36,838 bases of DNA, from assembly GCA_001714685.2 (NCBI GenBank), contig MDTP02000062.1:1-36838 (forward strand), read 5' to 3'. A program made the position numbers and the translations under genes. This DNA comes from Methanosarcina sp. Ant1. GTDB lineage: Archaea; Halobacteriota; Methanosarcinia; Methanosarcinales; Methanosarcinaceae. Each line of letters opens with the position of its first letter. Position 1 is the stretch's first letter. This document shows positions 11,950-17,935 of this stretch, piece after piece. The notes below the pieces were generated by a model. That model made no database searches. It saw only the letters and a program-made list of their open reading frames with translations, and was not told the origin of the DNA.

Positions 11950-13773
11950 ATGTTAGGGGGCTACGCAGGAAAGATCCTGGACGTCAATCTTGAGAGTGGA
12001 GAGCTTAAAGACATACCGCTTGACGAAGCAGTTTTAAGGATGTACCTCGGAGGAAAAGGGCTCGGCCTGAAACTCGTATACAATGAATTCAGGCCTGATA
12101 TGCAGCCTTTTGATCCCGATAACCTGCTGGTGTTTGCTACCGGGCCTGCTACAGGGGGAAAAGTTCCTACAAGCGGACGCTACCACGTTGTCTGCAGCAA
12201 ATCTCCCCAGACAGGGACTGTGGGGAGCGGAAATTCAGGCGGAAACTGGGGCCCCTACCTGAAGTTTGCGGGATACGATGCTGTTTTGGTCCGGGGGATT
12301 TCAAAAGAGCCTGTCTACCTGAGCATTGTGGACGGAAAAGCCGAGCTTGTGAAAGCTCCTGAAATCTGGGGGATGACAGTCCATGCGGTCACGGACGAAC
12401 TGACAGAAAGGACAGGCGACCCGAAGAAAACTTCAGTTGCATGTATCGGGCCTGCCGGAGAAAACCTGATCCCATTTGCCAGCATCATGAACGACAAGTA
12501 CAGAACCGCAGGCAGGACAGGGCTTGGGGCTGTAATGGGCAGCAAGAAGTTAAAGGCTATTGTGGTTTCAGGCAATAAAAGAGTCGAGCCTGCAAACCCC
12601 GAACTCTTGAAAGAGAGAGTCGCCGATTCCATGAAAAAAATAAGGGAAAACCCGGTTACCAGCCCCACCGGAGGACTCCACACCTACGGAACCTCTATCC
12701 TTGTAAACATCATCAACGAACATGGAGCCTACCCGGCCCGGAACTTCCAGGAAGCTTACTTCCCTGATGCCGATGAACAGAGCGGGGAGACTCTTGTCAA
12801 AAAATACCTGACAGGGAGATACGGCTGCTGGGGCTGCCCGATTATCTGTGGGAGGAAGTCCGATGTGCCTGATGGACCGTTCAGTGTCCGGCATACCGAG
12901 GGACCGGAGTATGAGACCATCTTTGCCTTCGGTTCCAACTGCGGAATAAAAGAGCTGGATGCTCTGGTAAAGGCAAACCACCTCTGTGATGAGCTGGGGC
13001 TTGACACCATCTCCATGGGAGATACAATTGCCTGTGCCATGGAACTTGTGGAAAAGGGAAAGATCCCTGAAGAAAAGTTTCACGGCATGAACCTTCGCTT
13101 CGGAGATGCCGGATCAATGATTGAAGCCATCTGGAGGACAGCATATCGCGCAGGGTTCGGAGCCGACCTTTCCCTCGGCTCAAAAAAGCTTGCAGAAAAA
13201 TATGGGGCTCCGGAACTCTCCATCACTGTCAAGGGCATGGAACTTCCAGCTTACGACCCAAGAGCCATCGAGGGAATGGGCCTCAACTACGCAACCGCAA
13301 ACCGCGGCGGAGACCACGTCTACGGATACATGGTATCTCCCGAAATCCTGGGGCTTCCTGAAAAACTTGACCCTTATACTAAGGAAGGTAAGCCGATGTG
13401 GACCATTATTCTCCAGGACCTGACCTCAGCCATCAACTCATCTGTCGTCTGCCTCTTTACTTCTTTTGCCCTTGGTCTTCCGGAGTATGCCGGGATGCTG
13501 GCAGCGATTACAGGCTTTGACCTTGACGCCGACAAACTCCTGAAACTCGGAGAAAGGGTTACGAACCTCGAGCGGCTGATGAATAACATGTACGGGCTTG
13601 ACCGAAAAGAAGACATTCTTCCAAGACGCCTCACTCAAGAGCCTATCCCAACAGGGCCCTCAAAAGGTCATGTTTCCCATGTTCCGGAAATGATTGATGA
13701 ATACTATAGACTCAGGGGCTGGATTGACGGAAAGCCGACTGCAGAAAAGTTGAAGGAACTAGGGATTGTCTGA
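11950..13773 (+). CDS. Tungsten-type aldehyde:ferredoxin oxidoreductase
   Basis: Members oxidise aldehydes to acids with ferredoxin as acceptor, using a bis-pterin W (or Mo) cofactor and one [4Fe-4S] cluster. The 607-residue length is normal. The N-terminal domain begins GGYAGKILDVNLESGELKDI and contains ATGPATGGKVPTSGRYH and the pterin-contact region GNSGGNWGPYLKFAGYDAVL. The cluster cysteines fit the family pattern: GCWGCPIICGRK (Cys294, Cys297, Cys301) and a fourth, Cys501, in VVCLFTSFALG. Start ATG 11950 follows AGGAG at about 11936. A MoaD-like gene lies 64 bp downstream. The aldehyde substrate cannot be told from the sequence; Methanosarcina genomes carry several paralogues. Confidence 0.92.
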   Translation: MLGGYAGKILDVNLESGELKDIPLDEAVLRMYLGGKGLGLKLVYNEFRPDMQPFDPDNLLVFATGPATGGKVPTSGRYHVVCSKSPQTGTVGSGNSGGNWGPYLKFAGYDAVLVRGISKEPVYLSIVDGKAELVKAPEIWGMTVHAVTDELTERTGDPKKTSVACIGPAGENLIPFASIMNDKYRTAGRTGLGAVMGSKKLKAIVVSGNKRVEPANPELLKERVADSMKKIRENPVTSPTGGLHTYGTSILVNIINEHGAYPARNFQEAYFPDADEQSGETLVKKYLTGRYGCWGCPIICGRKSDVPDGPFSVRHTEGPEYETIFAFGSNCGIKELDALVKANHLCDELGLDTISMGDTIACAMELVEKGKIPEEKFHGMNLRFGDAGSMIEAIWRTAYRAGFGADLSLGSKKLAEKYGAPELSITVKGMELPAYDPRAIEGMGLNYATANRGGDHVYGYMVSPEILGLPEKLDPYTKEGKPMWTIILQDLTSAINSSVVCLFTSFALGLPEYAGMLAAITGFDLDADKLLKLGERVTNLERLMNNMYGLDRKEDILPRRLTQEPIPTGPSKGHVSHVPEMIDEYYRLRGWIDGKPTAEKLKELGIV

Positions 13774-13804
13774 GTCTTTCATCCTATTTTTTTTCATTTA
13801 CTTT

Positions 13805-13834
13805 TTTCAGGAGAGGTAATTTTCAGGAGAGGTG
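13805..13834 (+). promoter_or_regulatory. Duplicated ribosome-binding site before the MoaD-like gene
   Basis: TTTCAGGAGAGGTAA (from 13805) is repeated 16 bp later as TTTCAGGAGAGGTGA (ending 13834). Only the second is correctly spaced for ATG 13838. The first may be an inert copy or a standby ribosome site. Confidence 0.6.
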
Positions 13835-13837
13835 AAT

Positions 13838-14122
13838 ATGAGGATACTCGTAAAGTTCCTTGCAAACATCCGTGAAATCACCGACGAGTCCGAAATAGAG
13901 CTTGAAATTCGTCCAGGAGACAGCATCGAAACGGTGATGAAGACTCTTGAATTGAGGTACGGCAAGGGTTTTAAAGAAGCAACAACAGGCACCACCACGA
14001 GCGGGATTCCAAATGTAAGTATCCTCGTAAACGGTAGAGACATGGACTTTCTCAAAGGGTTGAAAACCGAACTGCAGGAAGGGGATATTGTGGTTCTGAT
14101 CCCACCGGTTGCAGGCGGGTAA
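13838..14122 (+). CDS. MoaD/ThiS-like ubiquitin-fold sulfur carrier
   Basis: The 94-residue beta-grasp protein opens MRILVKFLANIREIT and ends PPVAGG. The terminal Gly-Gly is the site adenylated and thiocarboxylated in MoaD and ThiS carriers, which donate sulfur for molybdopterin/tungstopterin or thiazole synthesis. Its place 64 bp after a tungsten-type oxidoreductase favours the pterin pathway, and archaeal homologues can also be protein modifiers (SAMPs). ATG 13838 is preferred: the GTG at 13832 lies within the ribosome-binding site GGAGAGGTGA. Adenylating (MoaB/MoeB-like) and MoaE partners are not in the window. Confidence 0.82.
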   Translation: MRILVKFLANIREITDESEIELEIRPGDSIETVMKTLELRYGKGFKEATTGTTTSGIPNVSILVNGRDMDFLKGLKTELQEGDIVVLIPPVAGG

Positions 14123-14427: not shown

Positions 14428-15009
14428 TTGAAAGCTCTGGTTATAATAGATATGACTAACGATTTCGTATTTGAGGAATACGAATACGGTGGACAGATAT
14501 ACCAAGGAAAACTTGTAGCTCCTTTGGGAAAGACAATTGTTGATAGAATAGCAGGACTCATAAAAAAGGCAGTAAGTGGGGAGACGATCAGTCTTTTCAG
14601 GCTTCCGAAAGACCATTTCAATGCTTTTACAAATCCAGAACTAGAACTGAAAGTTGCAGAGCTGGAAATTGATGAAGTCTTCATGACGGGTCTGGTTGAT
14701 GAAGTCTGCATATATCATAACAGCCTGAGCTTCCTGGAAAGAGGTTTTCGGACAAATATAGTAAAAGGCTGTACCGCGCCTTTTGAGGAAGAAAAAGGGA
14801 AAGAAGCCTTGAAAGAACTTGAAGCCTGTGGTGCAAAAATGGTTGATGATATTCCAGAAGACATAAAGGTCATCCTGCTTCTCGAAGACGAACACGACAA
14901 AAACTCCGAAGAAATAAAATCAGGGAACTGGCCACCCCACAATATGAAAGGAACACCTGGAGCAATGACAGTCAAAGAGATAGGGGATGCCCTTGAGAAA
15001 AGGTTATAA
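14428..15009 (+). CDS. Isochorismatase-like cysteine hydrolase with rearranged segment order
   Basis: The protein has the isochorismatase/nicotinamidase fold: KALVIIDMTNDF (Asp8), LPKDHFNAF (Lys61) and TGLVDEVCIYHNSL (Cys94) form the expected Asp-Lys-Cys triad. In the family, the strand and loop carrying DxH and the WPPHxxxGTxGA motif sit between the first strand and the lysine. Here that part (EDIKVILLLEDEHD ... NWPPHNMKGTPGA, residues 144-193) is at the C-terminus, after the region that normally ends the protein, and AVSG joins directly to GETISLF. All pieces are present, so this looks like relocation, not loss. I chose TTG 14428, just after GAGGGGA and before the conserved KALVIID; a TTG at 14383 gives a 15-residue unconserved extension. 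A 10-codon ATG frame at 14399 overlaps this start and could couple translation. Substrate unknown. Confidence 0.8.
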   Translation: MKALVIIDMTNDFVFEEYEYGGQIYQGKLVAPLGKTIVDRIAGLIKKAVSGETISLFRLPKDHFNAFTNPELELKVAELEIDEVFMTGLVDEVCIYHNSLSFLERGFRTNIVKGCTAPFEEEKGKEALKELEACGAKMVDDIPEDIKVILLLEDEHDKNSEEIKSGNWPPHNMKGTPGAMTVKEIGDALEKRL

Positions 15010-15086: not shown

Positions 15087-15998
15087 TCAGGTTAAAACTC
15101 TCTCTCCATAATTTAATACACTCTCGATTTCTTTTTCCTGGTTCTGTTTCAGCTCTTCAGGAGTCCGATTTTTGTCAGGGACTTTATGAAGGTAAACCAA
15201 ACGCTGAGGGAATGGCATTTCTATACCATTTTCTTTAAGGGTCTTCTTTATGGCCCAGAGAAGCTTGCTTTTCAGTGCAGCCCATTCGCTAATAGGCGCC
15301 CAGATCCTGACAATGAGGTCTACCGAACTTTCTCCCAGTTCATTTACAAAAACAGAAGGATCAGGATTAAGGAGGGCAAAAGGCTCTTTGTCTATGAGGT
15401 CTTTAATCAGAAAGATTGCTGCGTCGGCATCGTCACTGTAGCGGATTCCAAATTTGAGATCGAACCTTCTGGCAGGGTAACCTACAACGTTTGTAATATT
15501 TGTTGTAAAAACTTGCTGATTGGGGATTCGGACAAGAAGCCCATCATAGGTCCGTATAAGGGTGGAGATTATGCGGATATCGGTGACGAAGCCCAATGTC
15601 CCGCTGATTTCGACCTGGTCTCCTATTTTTATGGGTTTTTCTATCATCAGGAAGACACCGGAGATCAGATTTCCCACAATATTCTGACTCGCAAAACCGA
15701 GGACGATACCTGTGATCCCTCCTGCCAGGAAGAGCCCTGAGGGATCAAGCCCTGTCAGAGGGAGTACGGCGATAAAAACAATAATAATCGTGCCATAATA
15801 AAAAAGTTTGAGGATAGTTTCGCCCGCATCCTTACTGACCTTATCTTTGAAAGATCTGCGCAGGTAAAGTGTAATAATTCTGGAAATGATGATTGAAAAA
15901 GATAGAATGAGTACAAACTTCAGCAAATCTCCCATGGTGACTGGACCATTTGAGGTAGAATAAGGGCTAAAGTCTAAAAAATTGATGTCCGTGATCAA
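15087..15998 (-). CDS. MscS-family mechanosensitive channel
   Basis: The 303-residue membrane protein should open under membrane tension to release solutes. An N-terminal part with two or three hydrophobic segments (LLKFVLILSFSIIISRIITLYL; TIIIVFIAVLPLTGLDPSGLF) leads into the pore-lining helix GGITGIVLGFASQNIVGNLI. The beta domain follows with EKPIKIGDQVEISGTLGFV and RTYDGLLVRIPNQQVF, both hallmarks, then the mixed C-terminal cage. It starts with TTG at 15998 inside TTGA, overlapping the stop of the DUF432 gene, with GAGG about 10 bases upstream; translation is probably coupled. It converges with the hydrolase gene on the other strand. Confidence 0.92.
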   Translation of the reverse strand: MITDINFLDFSPYSTSNGPVTMGDLLKFVLILSFSIIISRIITLYLRRSFKDKVSKDAGETILKLFYYGTIIIVFIAVLPLTGLDPSGLFLAGGITGIVLGFASQNIVGNLISGVFLMIEKPIKIGDQVEISGTLGFVTDIRIISTLIRTYDGLLVRIPNQQVFTTNITNVVGYPARRFDLKFGIRYSDDADAAIFLIKDLIDKEPFALLNPDPSVFVNELGESSVDLIVRIWAPISEWAALKSKLLWAIKKTLKENGIEMPFPQRLVYLHKVPDKNRTPEELKQNQEKEIESVLNYGERVLT

Positions 15999-16741
15999 AA
16001 TCCCAACCTCATATCAAATGTCAGTGATACGGGTACAAAATCGAGCTTCCGATTGTAAATTTCGATAGCTTCTTTTCGAGTCTCCTGGTTTTTTGGATGA
16101 AAACTTTTCAGCTCCCCACTAATATGCTGCAACTCAAAACCTGTTTCAGCCGTGTTCTTGTTGAGGATATCCATGTGCGCCCTCATGAAAACGTCGCTGT
16201 CATAAAAAATTTTCATCCCATATGCACTGAAAACCGCCTTTGAGATCGAGGCCCACTCAGAAGTGGTGTTTCTAAGAGTCAATTCCATAATTCCTTCCTG
16301 CAGAGGGTTCGGAGAGGGTGAAACTGAATATATCCCGCTTTTCCAGTGCTTGCAGATTATGCCATTTGAAACAGGCCCATAAAGTGTAAATTTCTTTCTT
16401 GCCAGAGTGAGCACATCCAGAAGCTGGAGGTTCTTGTTTCCCTTATCCGAGATAAAAACGCCTATTTCGACCGGAAAAGTAAGGAAAATCTTTTTTCTTG
16501 CTCCTGCCGCAAGAAGCAGAGTTTTCTCAAATTCTATTAGCAGGTTTGGTGTAATTTCTTTAGGAGTGTTAAGGGGCTCTACTGGACTTATGATTATATG
16601 CTTTCCATCTCCGAGGATGAGTTTCTCTACTGTATCTGTTCCAAGTGTCCTTTTGTATACCCACCGTTTTTCTAGCTCTTCCACGGAAATCGAAATTCCT
16701 TCCTTCTCTATTGAAAATGGGGGGTCATAATTGCCGTACAT
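15995..16741 (-). CDS. DUF432 family protein
   Basis: The 248-residue soluble protein resembles DUF432, a family of unknown function found mainly in archaea beside MscS genes. It begins YGNYDPPFSIEKEGISISVE; the middle has GKHIIISPVEPLNTPKEI and FLTFPVEIGVFIS, and the end is VPVSLTFDMRLGF. No signal peptide, membrane segment or catalytic motif is recognisable. The stop codon overlaps the TTG start of the channel gene by three bases, so the two are almost certainly co-translated. A role as a channel partner or regulator is suggested by this pairing alone. Confidence 0.75.
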   Translation of the reverse strand: MYGNYDPPFSIEKEGISISVEELEKRWVYKRTLGTDTVEKLILGDGKHIIISPVEPLNTPKEITPNLLIEFEKTLLLAAGARKKIFLTFPVEIGVFISDKGNKNLQLLDVLTLARKKFTLYGPVSNGIICKHWKSGIYSVSPSPNPLQEGIMELTLRNTTSEWASISKAVFSAYGMKIFYDSDVFMRAHMDILNKNTAETGFELQHISGELKSFHPKNQETRKEAIEIYNRKLDFVPVSLTFDMRLGF

Positions 16742-16864
16742 AGTATTCCACTAGTTAACATTTTTTAGACAAATTCCTAAATTTCTTAATATTAATTCTA
16801 ACTATTATAAAAAAGTTACAGTTGAACTATTTTTATGAACAAGTGAAGAAAAGAGAAAACGGAC

Positions 16865-17935
16865 TCAAACCCATCTTTTCTTTTTAAAGTAAGAAAACAT
16901 GATAGTTCCTACTGAGGCCATGAACAGAAGGATTGCAGGATAGCCCCAGCGCCACTGGAGTTCAGGCATATACTCGAAGTTCATCCCATAAACGCCTGCT
17001 ACAAAAGTGAGGGGAATGAAGATGGTGGCTATCACTGTCAGGACCTTCATAATATCATTCATTTTATTGCTTACGCTTGAAAGGTAAATATCCACCATTG
17101 AAGCCAGAATCTCCCTAAAATCTTCGACTGAATCTATCACCTGGATAGTATGATCATAGACGTCTCTCAGGTAAATCTGGGTAGTATCCTTAATAATTTC
17201 CGACTCAATTTTCTGCATACCATTGATTAACTCCCTGAGAGGCCAAACAGACTTACGAAGGGTGATCATGATCCTTTTGAATTTCTGGATAGTTCTGATA
17301 GTTTCAGGGCTGGGCTGTATGACCAATTCATCCTCAAGTTCCTCAATTTCCTCTCCAAAATGTTCAAGAATCAAGAAATAATTGTCAATCACTGCATCTA
17401 TAAGGCCATAGGCAAGATAATCCACTCCGTTTTTCCGGAGGCGAGAAGCTGGATTTTTGAGCCTCTCCCTTAAGGGATCGAAAACGTCTACCTCTCTTTC
17501 CTGAAAAGAAAGAATATAATTGTAACCGAAGACGATGCTTACCTGATCTATAATAATCTCGTTCTTTTCCTTATCAAGAAGCATCATTTTTAAAACAGTA
17601 TATACATAGGAGTCATAATCTTCCATCTTGGGCCTCTGTGCGGTATTTAGCACGTCTTCGAGGGTAAGAGGATGAATATGAAAATAGCTCCCGAGCTTTT
17701 CTATAACCTCTATTTGATCGAGCCCATCAACATCTATCCATAAATTCATACCTGGCTGGTCCTTAAAGGCCAAGCACTCTTCAACACTATTCAGTTCCTT
17801 TTCTACAATTCTTTCACTATTATACGCCACAATTTTGATTATGACTTTATCGATCTTTTTATCCCCAATGTGAACAAGAGTTCCAGGCGCAAGCCCTACC
17901 TTTACCCCTCTTTTCCTGAAAGTTCCCCGTTTCAC
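16865..17935 (-). CDS. corA: CorA-type magnesium/divalent-cation channel
   Basis: This is a 356-residue CorA homologue. A soluble N-terminal domain (about 1-290) contains WIDVDGLDQIEVIEKLG and FHIHPLTLEDVLN, followed by the long stalk helix and two C-terminal membrane helices. The pore signature YGMNF (about residue 317) ends the first helix, and the protein ends in the basic KKKRWV typical of the inner ring. It would form a pentamer that imports Mg2+ (or Co2+/Ni2+). Start is GTG 17935 with AGAGGTGAGG about 10 bases upstream. It is divergent from the TM-repeat gene at 18099 and shares a 163-bp promoter region with it. Confidence 0.93.
   Translation of the reverse strand: MKRGTFRKRGVKVGLAPGTLVHIGDKKIDKVIIKIVAYNSERIVEKELNSVEECLAFKDQPGMNLWIDVDGLDQIEVIEKLGSYFHIHPLTLEDVLNTAQRPKMEDYDSYVYTVLKMMLLDKEKNEIIIDQVSIVFGYNYILSFQEREVDVFDPLRERLKNPASRLRKNGVDYLAYGLIDAVIDNYFLILEHFGEEIEELEDELVIQPSPETIRTIQKFKRIMITLRKSVWPLRELINGMQKIESEIIKDTTQIYLRDVYDHTIQVIDSVEDFREILASMVDIYLSSVSNKMNDIMKVLTVIATIFIPLTFVAGVYGMNFEYMPELQWRWGYPAILLFMASVGTIMFSYFKKKRWV

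Follow-up and report, generated by a model that had tools for sequence, protein, structure and literature searches.

The ORF at positions 14428-15009 of Methanosarcina sp. Ant1 contig MDTP02000062.1 raises the question of whether an isochorismatase-fold protein can keep its function when a core segment, with the metal-binding motifs, stands at the end of the chain, and how such a chain would fold. The contig is 36,838 nucleotides long and is referred to here as the window. For comparison with the family, the chain was divided into segment A (strand 1 to helix 1), segment B (strand 2 with the DxH, WPPH and GTPGA motifs) and segment C (strand 3 to strand 6, with the Lys and Cys). The features are as follows.

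14428..15009, + strand: ORF of 193 residues, predicted isochorismatase-fold cysteine hydrolase, non-circularly permuted; TTG start at 14428, stop at 15007-15009
14428..14577, + strand: segment A, residues 1-50; strand 1 with putative catalytic Asp8 (14449-14451), insert loop, helix 1
14572..14589, + strand: new A-C junction, residues 49-54 (SGETIS); site of B removal, placed by the B re-insertion optimum at residues 50-54
14578..14862, + strand: segment C, residues 51-145; strands 3-6, putative catalytic Lys61 (14608-14610) and nucleophile Cys94 (14707-14709)
14845..14868, + strand: new C-B junction, residues 140-147 (DDIPEDIK); short connection between strands 6 and 2, placed by the alignment and by predicted strands 137-139 and 148-154
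14863..15006, + strand: segment B, residues ~146-193, displaced to the C-terminus; strand 2 (IKVILLLED), metal site, WPPH (14929-14940), GTPGA, C-terminal helix
14887-14889, 14893-14895 and 14938-14940, + strand: putative metal ligands Asp154, His156 and His171 of segment B

The native ORF matched PF00857 with 60.2 bits, above the curated superfamily cut-off of 27, in two separate stretches, and residues 59-140 of segment C corresponded to model positions 91-172. The best homologues in the PDB, the PncA structures 3s2s, 3o90 and 5zn8, matched the ORF in phmmer only as misordered pieces: along the 3s2s chain, ORF residues 2-36 were followed by residues 151-188 and then by residues 56-137. When B was put back at position 51, the Pfam match became continuous and rose from 60.2 to 76.1 bits, and the 3s2s match likewise became continuous and rose from 53.3 to 71.3 bits. 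These results confirm that the ORF has the order A-C-B instead of the family-standard A-B-C, with B after the normal last strand, and they bear out the claim of an earlier note on this DNA that all of the expected family pieces are present. The family-standard order b1-a1-b2-metal loop-b3-...-b6 is replaced by b1-a1-b3...b6-b2-metal loop, and the ORF is therefore a variant, not a standard member of the superfamily.

The nature of the rearrangement was resolved with a hidden Markov model built from 19 standard-order homologues and scored as the best single domain. The native chain scored 55.4 bits, whereas the chain with B re-inserted at residue 52 scored 112.3 bits (+57, a doubling). Residue 52 was the top of 146 insertion sites for B, and among 625 moves of any 48-residue segment the same movement of B to the middle was the best region. 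The gain is far above chance, as re-insertion of shuffled B gave 67.5 +/- 8.8 bits with a maximum of 81.4. Circular permutation was rejected: the best of the 193 rotations reached 55.9 bits, as against 112.3 bits for the transposition. Since no rotation helps and re-insertion of B peaks at 112.3 bits, the rearrangement is therefore a segment transposition and not a circular permutation, as the earlier note had proposed. That note had also read the DxH/WPPHxxxGTxGA segment as moved to the C-terminus and had placed the excision at AVSG-GETISLF, and both readings agree with the re-insertion optimum at about residues 50-54 (AVSG/ETISLF).

The draft assembly that contains the window is divided into 342 contigs, a point in favour of an artefact of assembly or annotation, or of a pseudogene in decay. 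However, 26 of the 31 Methanosarcina species genomes, among them several complete ones in a single contig, have the same collinear order at 71-85% identity; 25 carry a full-length match and the 26th has the gene split over two contigs. The gene was also present in all four genomes of the sister genus g5, giving 29 genomes with full-length collinear orthologues plus the split one, and A-C-B was the order in 64 of the 64 Methanosarcina and g5 ORF copies classified (29 genomes; overlapping loci included). The orthologues contain no internal stops, and their median dN/dS was ~0.11, with segment B the lowest of the three segments (0.077), showing that the permuted gene is under purifying selection. 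The artefact or pseudogene explanation is refuted by these orthologues and can be regarded as virtually impossible; the assembly error that had been raised earlier is excluded, since the order recurs in independent isolates, in complete genomes and in MAGs.

The TTG start of the ORF is preceded by a G-rich ribosome-binding stretch. This start is kept in 29 of 29 full-length orthologues, most of which have GGTGA or GGTGG 6-10 bases upstream, and the TTG at 14428-14430 is thus an unusually constant non-ATG start. Separately, one g5 genome contains a second, decayed copy (L052 6001-6264; G037:C40:15505-15771), which covers residues 104-192 only and has three in-frame stops.

Beyond Methanosarcinaceae, no permuted gene was found in 238 genomes of the class or in a 393-genome sample of the phylum, where only C-region matches were seen, nor was it found in plasmids or IMG/VR; the wider contig scan used two peptide patterns, SEEIKSGxW and DMTNDFV, which divergent permuted members elsewhere could escape. 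Every other homologue with a detectable B has the order A-B-C. The possibility that A-C-B is simply the normal arrangement of close homologues, which would have undone the claim of the earlier note, thus holds inside one clade but fails outside it, indicating that the permuted order is derived.

The contig scan also yielded the closest standard-order relative, L054, an ORF in a Candidatus Aenigmatarchaeota MAG (JAQUSH010000056.1). BLASTP matched L054 to the window protein through two segments in the wrong order; entered as three fragments, it aligned ungapped, the identity being 56% for A, 60% for B and 47% for C, with B in the middle. L054 shares with the permuted proteins the loop after DFV, the EEIKSG...PHNMKGTPGA stretch and the GLVxEVC..N motif, all absent from other nicotinamidases. 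In contrast to the permuted proteins, however, it carries B between helix 1 and strand 3, as does the rest of the family. In a tree built on order-restored sequences, the permuted proteins formed one clade (99/98) with L054 as its sister (100/98), with long branches present. A monophyletic permuted clade with a standard-order sister is explained by one transposition, and the tree indicates a single rearrangement on the branch leading to Methanosarcina and g5. Before the two genera split, one event would have taken B, which comprises strand 2 together with the Asp-x-His...His metal site and the WPPH/GTPGA flap, out of the gap between helix 1 and strand 3 and placed it at the C-terminus.

The neighbourhood of the gene was compared among its relatives. 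Downstream, a convergent block at 15087-17935 of the window (an MscS-like channel, DUF432 and a CorA Mg2+ transporter) is kept beside the permuted gene in most relatives, which supports vertical inheritance within the clade. Upstream, at 11950-14122, a tungsten-type aldehyde ferredoxin oxidoreductase (AOR) is followed by a ThiS/MoaD-like protein, and this pair adjoins the permuted gene in only some relatives. As a clue to the substrate, the operon context was discarded: neither the patchy AOR-ThiS pair nor the conserved convergent block points to one.

The earlier note had reasoned that either the chain end or a second subunit has to supply the central strand. This reasoning is correct, and the monomer prediction, of only moderate confidence, is compatible with the chain end as the source. 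AlphaFold2 monomer models from 18 permuted sequences reached a pLDDT of 71.8 and a pTM of 0.76, which increased to 79.2 and 0.81 when the L054 fragments were added; L054 was entered as three fragments because a mixed full-length alignment placed B in the wrong columns, and viral scans, run to deepen the alignment, gave one usable standard homologue. Strands were predicted at residues 2-8, 55-61, 83-87, 108-112, 137-139 and 148-154, and helix 1 (predicted at 32-50) leads straight into strand 3 (55-61) at the A-C junction. In Foldseek, A and C superposed on PncA with an rmsd of 2.6-2.8 A, and the top matches were nicotinamidases (5zn8, TMt 0.63, rmsd 2.6 A).

The sheet of the isochorismatase fold has the strand order 3-2-1-4-5-6. 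Strand 148-154 equals strand 1 (2-8) and strand 3 (55-61) in length; it is too long to pair only with the three-residue strand 6, and, with its VILLL core, it would fit a buried position; strands 1 and 3 are therefore its likely neighbours. On the basis of these strand lengths and the sequential superposition, the C-terminal strand 2 would return to the position that it had before the transposition, between strands 1 and 3 in the sheet of the same chain, and would bring the metal site beside Asp8, Lys61 and Cys94. The models are compatible with such a self-contained monomer.

Against this placement stands the tight link: about eight residues must cross four strands to bring the chain from edge strand 6 to slot 2; the alignment shows a one-residue insertion at this C-B junction in three orthologues. 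In addition, the metal-site loop (residues 161-180) was poorly modelled in the monomer, with a pLDDT of ~50, as was the loop of segment A (residues 11-33). The tight link and the poor metal loop make a domain-swapped dimer a serious rival, in which two chains, or the chains of a higher oligomer, exchange their C-terminal B segments and each active site combines A and C of one chain with B of the other. In YcaC, which has a related fold, the C-terminal helices touch the neighbouring monomer (PMC4519933), which was counted in favour of a swap. On the other hand, the monomer reached its pTM of 0.81 without a partner, and residues 131-150, the link included, had a pLDDT above 90, so that B supplied in trans is a possible but less likely arrangement. 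The stricter proposal, that the transposition fixed an obligate reciprocal swap in which the metal-binding half of each active site comes from the C-terminus of the partner, is doubtful; if it were true, one genomic rearrangement would have made an obligate oligomer in a single step.

A third arrangement, with B outside the classical slot, a rewired sheet (for example, strand 3 adjoining strand 1) and a new, possibly non-catalytic role, would be consistent with the rmsd of the PncA superposition, which leaves room for a shifted strand 3, with the low confidence of the metal loop and with the altered Cys94 motif. It is improbable, however, given that B is the most conserved segment, that all six catalytic and metal residues are invariant, and that the hydrophobic strand 2 suits a buried central position.

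Asp8, Lys61 and Cys94, as well as Asp154, His156 and His171 and the flap residue Trp168, were invariant in 18-20 aligned orthologues, which thus retain the PncA-type Asp-x-His...His and Trp motif. They correspond to Asp8, Lys96 and Cys138 and to Asp49, His51, His71 and Trp68, respectively, of Mycobacterium tuberculosis PncA, in which Asp8 also forms a hydrogen bond with the Asp49 backbone (PMC3025910). The pieces, the Asp-Lys-Cys triad, the metal motif and the WPPH flap are all shared with PncA of B. subtilis (5zn8), S. mutans (3s2s), S. pneumoniae (3o90) and P. horikoshii (1ilw/1im5), members of PF00857. The permuted protein differs from these in its A-C-B order, in the extra loop after DFV, and in its Cys94 motif, x-D/E-V-C instead of the usual T-D/N-x-C. 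It also falls below the cut-off of the NCBIfam nicotinamidase equivalog NF008623, with 27-28 bits against 174 in both native and de-permuted form; L061, an archaeal homologue that has both the standard order and the PncA motif, is below this cut-off as well (88 bits).

The protein is most likely an active nicotinamidase-like amidohydrolase of uncertain substrate, and would cleave an amide through the usual Cys acyl-enzyme intermediate. The gene of L054 (3904-4718) overlaps the start of a gene for NadE (NAD synthase) by 4 nt, PncB (nicotinate phosphoribosyltransferase) occurs in 30 of the 31 Methanosarcina genomes (NCBIfam confirms its identity for one), and in 12 genomes PF00857 matches nothing but the permuted protein; nicotinamidase is therefore the leading guess, and the substrate may well be nicotinamide, converted to nicotinate that would feed PncB. 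The substrate is nevertheless uncertain because related genera that lack the permuted gene commonly have PncB too, which makes its phylogenetic profile uninformative, and because the 99%-complete Methanosarcina genome G024 has PncB and no PF00857 protein. Some Methanosarcina also carry accessory standard-order isochorismatase paralogues (L104 1477-2139, L105 1471-2043), which are patchy and without the DxH metal motif. Overall, the observed order and its conservation, the standard-order sister, the intact catalytic residues and the purifying selection, together with the modelled fold, make it probable that the permuted protein is a functional, lineage-specific isochorismatase-like cysteine hydrolase, nearest to the nicotinamidases (PncA), with its B strand back in its own sheet.

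Non-circular permutations of proteins are documented and are rarer than circular ones (PMC10085705; PMC2096629). They include DNA methyltransferases, cited as such in PMC10085705, and AML1/CBF compared with riboflavin synthase (PMC2096629); these likewise reorder segments within a domain with no rotation of the termini, although their folds differ. The Methanosarcina protein differs from them in being a single segment transposition in a young clade, with an unpermuted sister alignable at 39-60% identity, and no earlier report of a permuted isochorismatase was found in the open-access literature. Within single domains, natural non-circular permutations are rare; most of the known examples are old and came to light only through structural comparison.

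The permuted protein and L054 form a pair that offers a direct experiment on the chain connectivity that an alpha/beta enzyme needs, and on whether such a move forces oligomerisation. Annotation that depends on segment order splits or truncates proteins permuted like this ORF. Carried across a group of methane-producing archaea, the gene provides a clean natural example in which a protein tolerates a shuffled chain order while the gene stays under strong selection.
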